A DNA stretch of 64,000 bases. It comes from Corynebacterium fournieri. GTDB lineage: Bacteria > Actinomycetota > Actinomycetes > Mycobacteriales > Mycobacteriaceae. The notes under the pieces were generated by a model. That model did not search any database. It was not told the DNA's origin and saw only the letters and a program-made list of their open reading frames with translations. Both the position numbers and the translations under genes were made by a program. Shown one piece after another: positions 8,220-64,000 of the stretch. The first letter of the stretch is position 1. Each line of letters opens with the position of its first letter. Location: the NCBI RefSeq assembly GCF_030408775.1, contig NZ_CP047210.1, positions 2,108,001 to 2,172,000 on the forward strand, in the 5' to 3' direction.

Positions 8220-8783
8220 CTACCGAAAGTTCAGGTACGCCTTCGAGGGGGTGGGGCCGCGCTGGCCCTGATACTTCGAACCGAGGGCGCCGCTGCCGTA
8301 TGGAGTGTCCGCGGGCGAGGACATCTTGAACAGCGCGAGCTGGCCGACCTTCATGCCCGGCCACAGCACGATGGGCAGGTTGGCCACGTTGGACAGCTCC
8401 AAGGTGATGTGGCCGGAAAAGCCCGGGTCGATAAAGCCGGCGGTGGAGTGCGTGAGCAGGCCCAAACGGCCGAGGGAAGACTTGCCCTCGAGGCGGCCCG
8501 CCAGGTCCGCAGGAAGCGAGAAGCATTCGAGCGTGGACGCGAGCACGAACTCGCCGGGGTGCAGGACGAAAGCGTCGTCGTCCGGCACCTCGACAAGGGT
8601 GGTCAGATCCGGCATCTCCTGCTTCGGGTCGATGTGCGTGTACTTCGAGTTATTGAAAACGCGGAAGAACTTGTCAATGCGCACGTCGATGGAACTCGGC
8701 TGAATCAACTCGGCGTCGAAGGGGTCGATGCCGAGGTGGCCGGAGTCGATTGCGTCGCGGATGTCGTGATCTGAAAGCAGCAC
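8220..8783 (-). CDS. dcd: dCTP deaminase
   Basis: 187 residues, the normal length. Converts dCTP toward dUMP/dUTP for thymidylate synthesis. Typical blocks are [24 protein letters not shown], the nucleotide-binding [20 protein letters not shown] (Arg, Ser and the catalytic Glu nearby in [12 protein letters not shown]) and the C-terminal [16 protein letters not shown] lid. Mycobacterial Dcd is bifunctional (deaminase plus dUTPase); which kind this is cannot be decided here. It lies next to a tRNA-Gly gene on the other strand. Confidence 0.95.
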
Positions 8784-8844
8784 GGCTCAAAGTGTACTTC
8801 CCCGTTTTGGGGTCCGAATCCGTGGTGCTAAAGTCATCAACGCT

Positions 8845-8915
8845 GCCGGCGTAGTTTAGTGGTAGAACATCAGCTTCCCAAGCTGAGAGTGCGAGTTCGA
8901 TTCTCGTCGCCGGCT
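8845..8915 (+). tRNA. tRNA-Gly (anticodon CCC)
   Basis: 71 bases fold into a standard cloverleaf: acceptor GCCGGCG/CGCCGGC, anticodon stem TCAGC/GCTGA around loop TTCCCAA (anticodon CCC), and T-arm GCGAG-TTCGATT-CTCGT. CCA is not encoded. CTCTTTTTTAT follows, a likely transcript end. Confidence 0.97.
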
Positions 8916-60178: not shown

Positions 60179-60988
60179 ATGGCGAAAACTCAAAAGGTGT
60201 CCCGGCCGCAGTTCAGAACCCCTGATCCCACGCAGAAGACCACCAGAACATCCAACTCACAAGGTTCAGCAGCTGCAGAACCAACGCGCCCATCCAGCGC
60301 CACTCTCCCCCACCTCCCACCTAGTGAGTTAAAAAACGTAACCTGCAGTGTCTGCGCAGGAACATGCAACCTTTCGTCGACGGGAGTTTTCCCCGATCAC
60401 TTCTTCAATTTCAGGGCCATGCGGAAGCCGTGCAGCGGAAGCGGAAAACGCTACGCACACCTACAGAAGTCACCAGCTCCGACGCCATCCGCAAAGAAGT
60501 ACCCCGCAGTCCAAAAACAATCAAACAAACAAGTTCCAGCGCCAAGCTATCCGCGGCTGAAACTCTCTAAACACGGCAAAGTCGAATGCCCAGCTTGCCA
60601 CAGGGCTTTGACCCCGAATCTGAAGAACAACTCCCTGCCCGTACACAAAAACAATGGCGAATCGTGCCGGATGAGCAACCGGAAGTTTGACTTTGTTGCG
60701 AAGAACAACAAGGCGGCCAAGAAAGTCTCTCCGGCTGCGCAGTCCTACGCAGAGAAATACAAGGTCCGCTCCCCGGAGCAAATCCGCAAAGAGAAACAAC
60801 GAAGCCAACGTTCGGCGAAGGACCGCAAACAGGAACAACGCAAAGCACGCCGACGCCAGCGGCGCCACTCCGACAGCTACGCCCTCGACTGCTACGACAG
60901 CTGGGGCATAGACGACCACAGCGTTGACCAGGGGGTAAGCGTCAGAACGTACCGAGGCGGACTTCCCGGCCAAGGGAAACGCCGGTAG
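60179..60988 (+). CDS. Double zinc-ribbon protein, basic, unknown
   Basis: 269 residues. Two similar metal-site units are visible: CSVCAGTC...PDH...PCSGSG (about residues 60-95) and CPACHRAL...PVHKNNGESC (about 137-165). Each is CxxC followed by His and Cys, the CxxC-H-C form common in phage and mobile-element proteins. The rest is basic and disordered-looking (SAKDRKQEQRKARRRQRRHSD). A nucleic acid-binding role is likely. No clear ribosome site precedes ATG 60179. Codon use is less GC-rich than the iron locus, a sign of transfer. The GAACGTAGGT motif lies on both sides of the gene. Family not recognised; enzymatic activity cannot be claimed. Confidence 0.6.
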   Translation: MAKTQKVSRPQFRTPDPTQKTTRTSNSQGSAAAEPTRPSSATLPHLPPSELKNVTCSVCAGTCNLSSTGVFPDHFFNFRAMRKPCSGSGKRYAHLQKSPAPTPSAKKYPAVQKQSNKQVPAPSYPRLKLSKHGKVECPACHRALTPNLKNNSLPVHKNNGESCRMSNRKFDFVAKNNKAAKKVSPAAQSYAEKYKVRSPEQIRKEKQRSQRSAKDRKQEQRKARRRQRRHSDSYALDCYDSWGIDDHSVDQGVSVRTYRGGLPGQGKRR

Positions 60989-61004
60989 GCCAAAACAGCA
61001 CCAT

Positions 61005-61119
61005 TGTGAACGTAGATACACAATGCGGTAATCGGTGTGAATGTTTGACAAAACGTGCGTCTACCTGGCGATTAAATATGTGAACGTAGGTCATGTTGAC
61101 ACGATTGTGAACGTAGGTT
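61005..61119 (+). repeat. Repeated TGTGAACGTAG(G/A)T motif upstream of the NYN gene
   Basis: Direct copies at 61005 (TGTGAACGTAGAT), 61079 (TGTGAACGTAGGT) and 61106 (TGTGAACGTAGGT), plus a partial one at 61036 (TGTGAATGTTT). They fill the 180-bp gap between the zinc-ribbon gene and the NYN gene. The layout suits an operator array for the downstream genes, or iterons of a mobile element. The binding protein is unknown. Confidence 0.75.
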
Positions 61120-61168
61120 AATCTTCATTCTTGTAAGCAACGCCAACACAAAGAAAGATGCTCACAGA

Positions 61169-61729
61169 ATGAACGCCATCAAGGCCCCACAGTCCCAGAC
61201 CAAAGAAAACCCCAGACGCTTGATTCTCGTCGACATCGAGAACTTCAATGGCCTGGCCGTACAGAGCGCCGCACAAGCAAAGTGGTGCAAAAAGATGCTC
61301 ACCCTCTGGCTCGACATCAAGGAAGGCGAGATCGTGGTCATCGCCTCCGACCAGAGCGGACTCTTCAACGTGAACGCAGGTTGGAAGGGTCCGAGACTCC
61401 TCATGGGAGAAGGACCCAACGGTGCCGACCGCCGACTGGTTGAGGAGATCGAGCGAATGAACATCGGTCAGTTTGATGAGATCGCTCTCGTCTCCGGAGA
61501 CGGGATCTTCGCTGAACCAGTAGCCCGAGCCGCGGACCAGGGAATCACTACCACGGTCTATGCCCACGGATTCCAGCTTTCTAGGCGACTACAGCTCGCC
61601 GCAGCACAGGTGCACATCTCGGAGGACGGCTACCTAACGGCCGCACACGCACCGAAGACAAACCCTTCCCTACCGGACAACGTCATCCAGCTCAACCAGA
61701 TCAACCAGACCAACCAGGAGGCAGCGTAA
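61169..61729 (+). CDS. NYN-domain RNase-like protein
   Basis: 186 residues. NYN/PIN-like fold with all three acidic sites: D22 in LILVDIENFNGLA, D87 in GADRRLVEEIE and D111 in VSGDGIFAE. Expected to be a metal-dependent RNase. It ends Q-rich (NQINQTNQEAA). It is directly coupled to the next gene (TAA then ATG), with shared upstream motifs. Distinct from the NYN protein at 28386. Link to DNA modification genes suggests a defence role; that is inference. Confidence 0.82.
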   Translation: MNAIKAPQSQTKENPRRLILVDIENFNGLAVQSAAQAKWCKKMLTLWLDIKEGEIVVIASDQSGLFNVNAGWKGPRLLMGEGPNGADRRLVEEIERMNIGQFDEIALVSGDGIFAEPVARAADQGITTTVYAHGFQLSRRLQLAAAQVHISEDGYLTAAHAPKTNPSLPDNVIQLNQINQTNQEAA

Positions 61730-63643
61730 ATGAACACCGCAACCGGACACCTCACGCTCAAAGACATCGCCGAGCTGGCGCAGGTCAGCCGGCCGGCCGT
61801 CAGCAACTGGCGCAGCCGCTACAACGACTTCCCCGAGCCCGTCAAAGAATCCACAGCCCGCAAACCGCTCTTCGATGCAGACGCGGTGGTTGCTTGGCTC
61901 AAACAGAACGGCTTCTTCCCCGAAGGAGCGGAGGAAGACCTCAAACTGGCTTCGCTCTGGGCAACGGCAAACCTGCTGCGCAGCCACCTCCCGGTAGATG
62001 AGATCCCACTCGTCATCCTTTCGCTGCTGGCGCTCGACCAAGACCCCTCGTTCGAGGTATCTGCCGAGTTCGACCAGATCACCGGCCGCCTGAACGAAGA
62101 CACGCTGGATGAAGTCAAGCGTGGCATCGCAAGCCTGAGCATCACCGACTATGCCCAAGCCGCCAACCAAGTCGTGGACCGATTCCTCGGAGTAGGTTCG
62201 CGCGGCGAACGTAGCCAGTACGGCACGTCCACGTCGCTTTCAAGCGCAGCGCTGATCTCGGCAGCCTCTACCACCTTGGAGGGTGTCCAGACCGTCTTGG
62301 ACCCCGCGTGCGGTATCGCCGGCACGCTGCTGGGGATCGGGGAGGCGGCCCCCGAAGCGAAGCTCTTGGGAGCCGAGCTAAACCCCTCCATCGCAGCACT
62401 CGCGCGGTTGTTGGGACACTTCGCTGACAGCACGGTGACCATTCACACCGGGGATTCCATCGTCCACGATCCGTTCCCGAAGACAAAAACGGACCTTGTG
62501 GTGTGCGAACCTCCACTGGGTGTCCGTATCCCCCGAGAGCAGCTAGGCAACCTGGAGGAGCTCTTCGGTTCACTCCGGGGCCTGTTTAGTGACGACCTTT
62601 TCCTGCTTCACGCAGCCCACCACCTATCGCCGGACGGGCGCGCCTACATCCTCACCGGCCTAAACCCCACGTACCGGCCCTCGTTCAGGGAACACCGCCA
62701 GCGCCTCGTCGCTCAGGGCCAGGTCGAAGCCATCGTTGAACTGCCGGCTGGAATGTATGCAGCCACCCGCATCCCCGCAGTGTTGTGGGTGCTGCGCGCC
62801 AAAGGCGCAGATGAGCCGTTGCTTATCGACGCCTCCGGTGAAGCCCCGGAAACCATCCCCGCCCGAATCGCCGAGTGGCTCACCGCTGCGCGCAACCGCG
62901 AAGCCACCGACGTGCCATACAAGGCGATCACCTTGGCCGACGTTGTCACCAACGACGGCTCATTTTCCCCATCCACTTACCTTGCTGAGCCCCTCAGCAC
63001 TGATGAGGCGGGTTCCGAATTCGATTCCGCCCTCCAATCCCTCGCAGCAACAACTAAGGACCTCATGCGTATCCGCACCCCCCGCGTCACCGCAGACGCC
63101 ATCCCCACGTCCACCACGTCCACCATGCTCGCCGACCTGATCAAGAGCGGGCACTTCACACGCATCAACGGCACCTACCGCGCCGACAAGCACCTCGAAT
63201 CCGGCGATGTCTACCTTGCTCGCCCCAACCGAAACACCGCTCCCGCGTTCGTAGCGGACCACGATGCAGCGGATGCCCTTCGCCCCGGCGACATTGTGAT
63301 GCCCCGAATTGGCGAGCTCCCTGCCTGGGTTCACCAGGACGATGGCAAGACCTGGGTCCCCTCCGACTCAGTCATCGTTCTCCGCCCCACCTCGGATGAG
63401 TACGAGCCCGACTTCATCGCCGCTTGCCTGAACGCGGCTGTGAACATCGATACCCGCACTACATTGCCGAGGCGTCACCCGGTGGCCCGCATCGCGATCC
63501 CGGAGCTCAGCAGTGACCAGCAAGCAGTCGTCGCACAAGCGCACCGCTCGCTCGACAACGCCCGCACGGCGGCACGCAAGCTCGAGCGTGAAGCCGAACA
63601 CGCAAGCGACGCCCTGATCAACCTCGTCTTCTCCGGAAAGTAG
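61730..63643 (+). CDS. N-6 DNA methylase-like protein with N-terminal HTH and altered catalytic motif
   Basis: 637 residues. A winged helix-turn-helix (LTLKDIAELAQVSRPAVSNWRSRYNDFP, residues 8-35) is followed by a helical linker, then an N6_Mtase-type domain with SAM motif I VLDPACGIAGT (189-199). The catalytic NPPY/F motif is replaced: the sequence there reads VVCEPPLGV (residues 257-265), so Asn is Glu and the aromatic is Leu. The C-terminal 180 residues resemble a type I target-recognition (HsdS-like) half with a trailing coiled coil. Methylation is therefore doubtful; DNA binding and recognition look intact. It is coupled to the NYN gene and followed by a normal type I HsdM. Confidence 0.78.
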   Translation: MNTATGHLTLKDIAELAQVSRPAVSNWRSRYNDFPEPVKESTARKPLFDADAVVAWLKQNGFFPEGAEEDLKLASLWATANLLRSHLPVDEIPLVILSLLALDQDPSFEVSAEFDQITGRLNEDTLDEVKRGIASLSITDYAQAANQVVDRFLGVGSRGERSQYGTSTSLSSAALISAASTTLEGVQTVLDPACGIAGTLLGIGEAAPEAKLLGAELNPSIAALARLLGHFADSTVTIHTGDSIVHDPFPKTKTDLVVCEPPLGVRIPREQLGNLEELFGSLRGLFSDDLFLLHAAHHLSPDGRAYILTGLNPTYRPSFREHRQRLVAQGQVEAIVELPAGMYAATRIPAVLWVLRAKGADEPLLIDASGEAPETIPARIAEWLTAARNREATDVPYKAITLADVVTNDGSFSPSTYLAEPLSTDEAGSEFDSALQSLAATTKDLMRIRTPRVTADAIPTSTTSTMLADLIKSGHFTRINGTYRADKHLESGDVYLARPNRNTAPAFVADHDAADALRPGDIVMPRIGELPAWVHQDDGKTWVPSDSVIVLRPTSDEYEPDFIAACLNAAVNIDTRTTLPRRHPVARIAIPELSSDQQAVVAQAHRSLDNARTAARKLEREAEHASDALINLVFSGK

Positions 63644-63653
63644 GCTCCCAACT

Positions 63654-64000
63654 ATGACTCCCACCCCCGTCAAAGAGTTCCAGGACACCCTGTGGAAAGC
63701 CGCCGATAAGCTGCGCGGTTCCATGGATGCCTCGCAATACAAAGACATCGTCCTCGGACTCGTGTTTCTCAAGTACGTCACCGATGCATTCGATGCACGC
63801 CGCCAAGAGCTCCAAGCCGAGCTCGAGGAGGAAGGCGCCACCGAGGAGGAGATCCTGGAGGAGCTTGAGGACCGCGACGCCTACCTGGAAAAGAACGTCT
63901 TCTGGGTCGCACCTGCTGCCCGCTGGGACTTCCTGCAACGCCACTCCAAGGGCAAGACCGAAGAGGCCGGCGGCGAGTTCAAGGCGATAGGCAAGCTTAT
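63654..64000 (+). CDS. hsdM: Type I restriction-modification methylase HsdM, cut by window end
   Basis: The first 115 residues: KEFQDTLWKAADKLRGSMDASQYKDIVLGLVFLKYVTDAFDARR is the HsdM N-terminal (N12 class I) domain, and the acidic stretch EEEGATEEEILEELEDRDAY follows. The catalytic part lies beyond the window. HsdM with HsdS methylates adenine at a split site; HsdR would cut unmodified DNA. HsdS and HsdR are not in view. It follows the altered methylase gene by 10 bp, in the same direction. Confidence 0.9.
   Translation, partial: MTPTPVKEFQDTLWKAADKLRGSMDASQYKDIVLGLVFLKYVTDAFDARRQELQAELEEEGATEEEILEELEDRDAYLEKNVFWVAPAARWDFLQRHSKGKTEEAGGEFKAIGKL

Follow-up and report, generated by a model that had tools for sequence, protein, structure and literature searches.

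Passages of PMC2610378, PMC3874165 and PMC3710099 describe PrrC as an RNase whose gene lies inside a type I restriction-modification (R-M) operon; the type I enzyme keeps PrrC silent, and inhibition of restriction by a phage frees it as a second line of defense. M.SsoII is reported in PMC3978073 to repress its own gene via a regulatory site in the promoter region, and RptR in PMC12255303 to act through three direct repeats in repressing a type I R-M/DarTG2 island. A 64,000-nucleotide window of the one-contig, 2.39-Mb genome of Corynebacterium fournieri (contig NZ_CP047210.1) ends within an operon in which type I genes are preceded by a gene for a NYN-family RNase-like protein and by a gene for an altered methylase, a helix-turn-helix (HTH)/N6-methylase/target recognition domain (TRD) protein of 637 amino acids referred to here as pMT. 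As judged by sequence comparison, NYN and pMT form a conserved, co-evolving module under purifying selection, which is lost or exchanged apart from hsdMSR. The pair is tentatively read as an exchangeable two-gene guard/RNase module, often found before type I operons, that may serve as a back-up against phages.

The two genes of the module are as follows.

61169..61729, plus strand: NYN-family RNase-like protein, 186 amino acids (Pfam NYN above the gathering score, invariant acidic residues, fold)
61730..63643, plus strand: pMT, 637 amino acids (Pfam, alignments, structural model with a pLDDT of 89.7, PDB matches)

The initial annotation of this DNA had proposed an NYN RNase-like protein with all of its acidic residues, coupled through TAA-ATG to a methylase relative with an N-terminal HTH and a broken catalytic motif, and then a normal type I HsdM. 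Each of these parts is confirmed, and the coupling of the NYN stop codon to the pMT start codon is exact. The NYN protein matches the Pfam NYN family with 27.4 bits (cutoff 24.2), with no further Pfam match up to an E-value of 0.1. Asp22, Glu24, Asp87 and Asp111, acidic positions among which we take the catalytic residues to lie, are invariant in 31/31 aligned homologues; counts out of 31 favor conservation, because the 31-row NYN and pMT alignments omit the four most divergent loci (L064, L065, L165 and L182). The AlphaFold model of the protein (predicted local distance difference test score, pLDDT, 86.6) resembles VPA0982 and the NYN domain of MARF1, with TM-scores of 0.51–0.64. The Pfam match and the acidic residues place the protein in the NYN RNase family, and RNase activity itself is predicted.

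pMT is comprised of an HTH (residues about 8–60), a helical linker, an N6-methylase fold (about 161–400; Pfam N6_Mtase, 62 bits) and a C-terminal region (about 401–637) with an HsdS-like TRD and a long helix, the last being a feature absent from the initial annotation. The HTH is seen in an AlphaFold model built from 31 aligned sequences (mean pLDDT 89.7, predicted TM-score 0.70) and also gives sub-threshold Pfam HTH matches. In a profile search of solved structures the middle of the protein matches EcoR124 HsdM, PacII M1/M2 and other HsdM chains, and the C terminus matches HsdS chains. By E-value, Foldseek ranks first 7eew (1.2e-21; TM-score 0.40), the structure of a type I methylase together with Ocr; whole-chain TM-scores of ∼0.4 are expected, because the domains are movable.

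Motif I of pMT is DPACGIAG in the window, and DPxxG is kept in all 31 aligned sequences. Motif IV, defined for HsdM as NPP[YFW] in the available text of PMC3874165, is replaced in the window protein by CEPPLG, and pMT has neither a Pfam HsdM_N match nor a sufficient score against TIGR00497 (24.7 bits, where 242.75 are required). The first residue of motif IV is Glu in 30 and Gln in one of the 31 aligned proteins; across 35 pair loci it is Glu in 30, Gln in L079, Val in L064, Ile in L182, Asn in L065 and Asp in L165, leaving 33/35 without the canonical Asn/Asp. The aromatic residue of the motif is kept in 20/31 (17 Phe, three Tyr), and the window protein and ten others have Leu, Ile or Met, such that the window lineage has lost both the catalytic Asn/Asp and the aromatic. 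Glu resembles the Asp of DPPY, and pMT could be an active adenine methylase that tolerates the change (EPP[FY]) and provides a second, self-contained modification activity, to which the conserved motif I, the 20 retained aromatics and the canonical motifs of L065 and L165 would be suited. This is judged improbable, given the 11 proteins without the aromatic, the existence of EPT, ELP, EAP, EGP and QLP variants, and the lack of EPPY or EPPF among the literature matches listed.

NYN (E ≤ 1e-4) was found in 15 of 242 Corynebacterium genomes, and pMT adjoins it in 15/15. A total of 35 distinct pair loci was counted, consisting of 16 from Corynebacterium (the 15 NYN-bearing genomes and G042, whose NYN at L065 fell outside the 1e-4 cutoff), 17 from a contig scan of named genomes, L165 and L182. 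Because the contig scan was restricted to the best 80 among 239 relatives, its NYN share is no measure of prevalence. Within L072–L145 it found both genes at 18 loci, of which L088 was dropped as a copy of L054; L066–L071 are copies of Corynebacterium loci, and L178, L179 and L181 of L063, L080 and L076, respectively. Pair hosts in the scan include Microbacterium, Mycobacterium, Mycolicibacterium, Williamsia, Dietzia, Rhodococcoides, Curtobacterium, Aurantimicrobium, Nocardioides and several metagenome-assembled genomes, and the two genes lie head-to-head on two short contigs filed, with binning unchecked, as Acidobacteria (L079) and Gemmataceae (L081). An order-level profile search of 397 genomes yielded seven NYN matches (≤ 1e-10), five of which adjoin a methylase of the pMT family, four of these five being known pair loci already. 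A phylum search of 396 genomes gave 17 with a NYN match (≤ 1e-5), where a pMT-like methylase was present only at the window locus and L149 (more widely, also L165); since just two of the 17 loci carry such a neighbor, distant NYN relatives have other contexts. The initial annotation had named a pair that occurs once, or genes that are usually apart, as grounds for doubt, and neither was seen (15/15 in Corynebacterium, 5/7 at order level).

The type I genes follow pMT directly, and the reading beyond position 64,000 that the initial annotation had called for revealed both hsdS and hsdR, followed by a further open reading frame (ORF).

63654..64000, plus strand, continuing to 65240 beyond the window: hsdM, normal type I methylase, 528 amino acids (Pfam, NPPF)
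65240-66439, beyond the window end, read in L002: hsdS
about 66444-69620, beyond the window end, read in L002: hsdR
about 69620-70306, beyond the window end (L002:11621-12307): 228-amino acid ORF, last gene of the operon

The order NYN-pMT-hsdM-hsdS-hsdR-228-amino acid ORF is thus compact, with intergenic gaps of at most ∼10 bp or overlaps. HsdM has motif IV NPPF with N6_Mtase and HsdM_N domains, HsdS a Methylase_S domain, and HsdR HSDR_N, SWI2_SNF2 and a T1RH-like C-domain (Pfam); type I subunits are the best-scoring PADLOC models for all three, and no Pfam or PADLOC family was matched by the last gene at E 0.001. HsdS of the window operon (L002:7241-8440) is only 28–32% identical to those of L048, L049 and L050, whereas HsdM and HsdR are 87–95% identical there, a pattern which by these identities is one of specificity replacement.

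Over the 31 aligned pairs, the distances of NYN and pMT are strongly correlated (Mantel r = 0.771, with 0/5000 permutations as high). At 20 of the 22 hsdR-bearing loci (L065 and L165 lie outside the NYN/pMT alignments), r was 0.908 for NYN-pMT and 0.909 for HsdM-HsdR, and 0.70–0.77 across the two modules, with NYN and pMT against HsdR at 0.74–0.77. The partial correlation of NYN and pMT given HsdR was 0.786, and that of NYN and HsdR given pMT 0.159. Identities between L051 and L054 are 53% for NYN and 46% for pMT, with 25% for HsdM and 20% for HsdR; the pattern is reversed between L054 and L058, where HsdM and HsdR are both 62% identical, with NYN at 47% and pMT at 34%. Four comparisons between close relatives gave identities of 87–95% for HsdM and HsdR, 63–72% for NYN and 60–82% for pMT, and the ratio of non-synonymous to synonymous differences per site (pN/pS), from four pairwise comparisons each and with pS near saturation in several, is 0.25–0.37 for NYN and pMT and 0.07–0.13 for HsdM and HsdR. 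By its lower identities and these ratios, the pair evolves fast yet under purifying selection, and on the ratios the idea of pMT as a pseudogene was rejected. In genomes G218 and G017 NYN is gone, and of pMT only the final 131 residues are left, interrupted by a stop and fused to a preceding zinc-ribbon fragment; hsdM (97% identical) and hsdR are retained. One copy of the operon in G042 (L053) is without NYN and the 5' end of pMT and has hsdM, hsdS and hsdR, an intact pair being present elsewhere in the genome. Since the hsd genes were kept after loss in all three genomes, they seem able to do without the pair.

Repeats and a promoter-like site are located immediately upstream of NYN.

61005..61017, plus strand: putative operator repeat 1, TGTGAACGTAGAT, exact match
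61079..61091, plus strand: putative operator repeat 2, TGTGAACGTAGGT, exact match
61106..61118, plus strand: putative operator repeat 3, TGTGAACGTAGGT, exact match, within the spacer between the promoter-like boxes
61096..61124, plus strand: promoter-like TTGACA-17 nt-TAATCT with repeat 3 in its spacer (relaxed pattern, no chance control)

The pattern TGTGAACGTAGNT has three copies in the 2.39-Mb genome, all inside the 165 bp before NYN, and none with the pattern reversed as a control; the short form of the three repeats is TGTGAACGTAG. The pattern TGTGWACRTAGNT was matched 18 times in 37 genomes (15 with the pair, three with remnants or another copy, and 19 picked without the pair), and 11 of these matches, from 7 of the 15 pair genomes, lie within ∼200 bp upstream of NYN. 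A shorter core, TGTGWAY, was derived from eight loci, the window's among them. It occurs 62 times in 31 upstream stretches (the pair loci other than L079, L081, L165 and L182), where the rate within the loci themselves predicts 2.47, with at least one site in 23/31. In the 23 remaining loci the core was counted 32 times, at 15 of them, and none of 1259 permuted motifs (mean 2.46) reached this number, although this held-out test is not blind, because the core was chosen with the repeats of all 31 loci in view. Among 56 NYN-less relatives, whose upstream repeats were previously unexamined, 32 sites were found in 25 loci (2.44 expected; permuted-motif mean 3.59, 1/1259 as high). The Streptomyces rows of this set, being closely related, amount to few independent cases, and some of their sites may fall at or inside a gene start. 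The core also stands directly before pMT in L078, L083 and L104, NYN-less close kin of the NYN-linked proteins. A similar repeat-in-spacer placing, with variant boxes or repeats, is seen in L048, L049, L050 and L051, and 12 among the 17 stretches listed fit the relaxed promoter pattern, for which there is no chance control. A CRP/GlxR-type operator was considered because of the TGTGA in the repeats; the GlxR consensus is TGTGA-N6-TCACA, and by eye its second half is missing at that spacing in the window repeats, so this candidate was set aside.

The simplest reading of the repeats is putative binding by the pMT HTH, with repression of its own operon, and a private repeated operator suggests that regulation is involved in addition to sensing. 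The same arrangement invites a reading in which pMT, like a C protein, represses the entire NYN-pMT-hsdMSR operon and NYN trims or decays the operon mRNA, with no killing. The position of the putative operator before NYN, the overlaps or gaps of at most ∼10 bp from NYN to hsdR, and the precedents of RptR and M.SsoII (in the available parts of PMC12255303 and PMC3978073) are consistent with such a controller. It is nevertheless considered unlikely, as eight loci that are not short contigs and have no hsdR in the stretch read (L052, L055, L057, L059, L062, L063, L064 and L092) keep both genes, seven of them (all but L055) with a TGTGWAY site, and type I genes persist beside remnants of the pair (hsdMSR at L053 of G042; hsdM and hsdR in G218 and G017).

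Two adjacent genes with a putative operator in the promoter region are also, by sequence, the arrangement of a type II toxin-antitoxin system. NYN would then be a toxin and pMT its antitoxin and autorepressor, stabilizing the type I island or itself with no phage sensing. The coupling of the genes, the repeated putative operator in front and the joint loss of both genes fit this, as do the location of an NYN gene beside a RelB-domain gene in L163 and the replacement of NYN in L078 by a small ORF that is, by eye, like a ribbon-helix-helix (RHH) antitoxin. A protein of 637 residues with a full methylase fold, motif I in 31/31 and a TRD under purifying selection seems to exceed what neutralization needs, and a plain toxin-antitoxin pair is regarded as rather unlikely.

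A guard role for pMT is favored because the protein keeps a methylase-like look for DNA, S-adenosylmethionine (SAM) or a DNA mimic and, in the window lineage, has lost the catalytic Asn/Asp together with the aromatic. From the conserved pair, the altered motif and the private repeats, pMT is probably an autorepressor and sensor that guards an RNase effector, where repression, toxicity and defense are inferred. In the proposed scheme pMT would bind the repeat array through its HTH and repress the NYN-pMT-hsdMSR operon, while its methylase-TRD body would sense foreign DNA, SAM shortage or phage anti-restriction DNA mimics, the trigger being a guess. NYN would be restrained by pMT as long as restriction holds; an attack on the restriction layer, its bypass or the presence of unprotected DNA would free NYN, which would then cut RNA and stop the infected cell. 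A narrower version, in which a dead copy of a type I methylase is bait for Ocr/ArdA-type mimics or for SAM depletion and its engagement frees both the operator and NYN, leading to RNA cleavage and growth arrest, is considered unlikely.

Several observations weigh against the guard/RNase reading. The canonical motif IV is kept in two pair loci (NPPF in L065 and DPPY in L165), so that loss of catalysis is inessential to pairing, and activity as an EPP[FY] methylase, however doubtful, would apply to the members that retain the aromatic. Two of the seven order-level NYN matches and 15 of the 17 phylum-level relatives, most of them weak, have no pMT alongside, and the close pMT relatives of L078, L083 and L104 are without NYN. 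No hsdR is present in the stretch read for 13 of the 35 pair loci, some being short contigs or having no further sequence read, and several pairs have no type I genes nearby. The remaining seven of the 18 TGTGWACRTAGNT matches lie elsewhere, four of them in the 19 pair-less genomes, and the reversed control gave seven in all; 8 of the 15 pair genomes are without the longer repeat form near NYN, 8/31 loci have no TGTGWAY site, and a stricter promoter scan of 60900–63700 found no promoter-like site. Much of the evidence could also be explained by a plain toxin-antitoxin module or by an expression controller.

The association with type I genes that the initial annotation had envisaged is borne out in that the pair is recurrent and hsdR (called by BLAST at 1e-8 with six references) lies inside the fetched stretch of 22/35 pair loci; a role of the pair as strictly a type I accessory is not supported, because some pairs have no hsd genes near. 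Two further proposals fared less well. A zinc-ribbon-like ORF at 60179–60988, which had been counted as part of the module, encodes a basic protein for which no Pfam family reaches cutoff. Its two best near-full-length homologues are in G140 and G116, genomes without NYN at the search cutoff, and beside the pair or its remnants outside the window only fragments occur (G009, G218 and G017), so that the zinc ribbon was rejected as a module member. The low-GC island holds for 60–62 kb (GC ∼0.56) and fails for 62–64 kb (0.62–0.63), which leaves only the first genes clearly below most of the window.

Other neighborhoods of the two families were also recorded. In L078 an 88-amino acid ORF (8619-8882), the RHH-antitoxin-like one, takes the NYN position before pMT and HsdM-like, HsdS-like and HsdR-like ORFs. 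At L163:6039-9062 an NYN of the family studied here stands without pMT; a divergent AAA_21 gene lies before it, and the gene after it encodes a 331-amino acid protein that matches RelB. A gene for an ATPase of ∼1200 amino acids is divergent from the pair in L057:5808-9449 and L059:14993-18586, with PADLOC matches to mad3, LmuB, AriA and GajA. BREX, suspected there from gene sizes, was discarded, as three L057 proteins and one L059 protein gave no BREX match in PADLOC at E 1e-8, a scan in which the ATPase resembled mad3/LmuB/AriA. Two hsdM-like ORFs lie 3' of pMT in L072, L074, L084, L085, L086 and L091, and are perhaps M1/M2 subunits of the PacII kind.

HTH-methylase-like proteins of the Streptomyces/Nocardiopsis type (PADLOC MTase_I PDLC03037) share the HTH + methylase architecture of pMT and form a separate clade beside the NYN-linked clade in a quick tree, which has long branches at L062, L165 and HsdM and in which the NYN-less sister group is represented by 16 rows chosen randomly from 51. 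No NYN was found with this family, and its motif IV is [DE]PP (one EPS) with a non-aromatic next residue in nearly all; in L105, L108 and L131 (Kitasatospora, Actinomadura and Streptomyces) the residue is Val, Ala, Thr, Pro or Ser. Among the sister-clade neighbors scanned, all of them convergent, are McrBC and AAA genes in L108 and a UvrD-like helicase in L105, the L131 neighborhood being similar by eye only. A housekeeping role for the altered family, a concern of the initial annotation, was not found, having been looked for only via these neighbors.

Of the defense systems in PADLOC, pMT is matched best by the type I methylase model (1.6e-27), then by mad2 (2.5e-22) and weakly by mad1 (1.4e-4). 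With the gene make-up of MADS taken as general background and from the PADLOC names, membership of the operon in MADS was rejected, since HsdM, HsdS and HsdR are best matched by type I models and the last gene matches nothing. If the guard reading is true, labeling pMT a type I methylase after its best PADLOC match would misread it. The pair is undescribed among the literature matches listed, which cover open papers and are weak evidence of absence; NYN is absent from the main text of PMC12839542 and, in the available part of PMC10853773, is found only in the reference list.

The regulatory half of the proposed module is paralleled by M.SsoII and RptR, and the effector half, the trigger and the pMT-NYN contact are inferred. 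M.SsoII and M.Ecl18kI have a DNA-binding N-terminal region fused to a methylase, an arrangement predicted for pMT too; these two proteins are active C5 methylases of type II systems with no RNase, whereas pMT is of the N6 class with an altered motif and a TRD. Private repeats upstream and an HTH are present at the window locus, and the repeats are putative binding sites. RptR is a small E. coli protein that uses a TAGCTA site and is unrelated to methylases. The scheme as a whole would parallel PrrC beside EcoprrI (type IC), where an RNase-like gene is likewise linked to hsdMSR, except that the RNase is of another kind and would have its own methylase-like guard. PrrC is an ABC-ATPase + HEPN protein silenced by the type I enzyme, whereas the window RNase is an NYN protein without an ATPase, paired with its own altered methylase and moving with it apart from hsdMSR. 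Should the guard reading be true, type I restriction in actinobacteria can bear an exchangeable second layer, with a onetime methylase acting as the sensor and repressor of an RNase, the PrrC example would be extended to a different RNase fold, and NYN + EPP methylase + TGTGWAY operators would be a search signature for such layers. The module is built from known kinds of parts and is a variation, undescribed among the literature matches listed, on the theme of an RNase carried with restriction.

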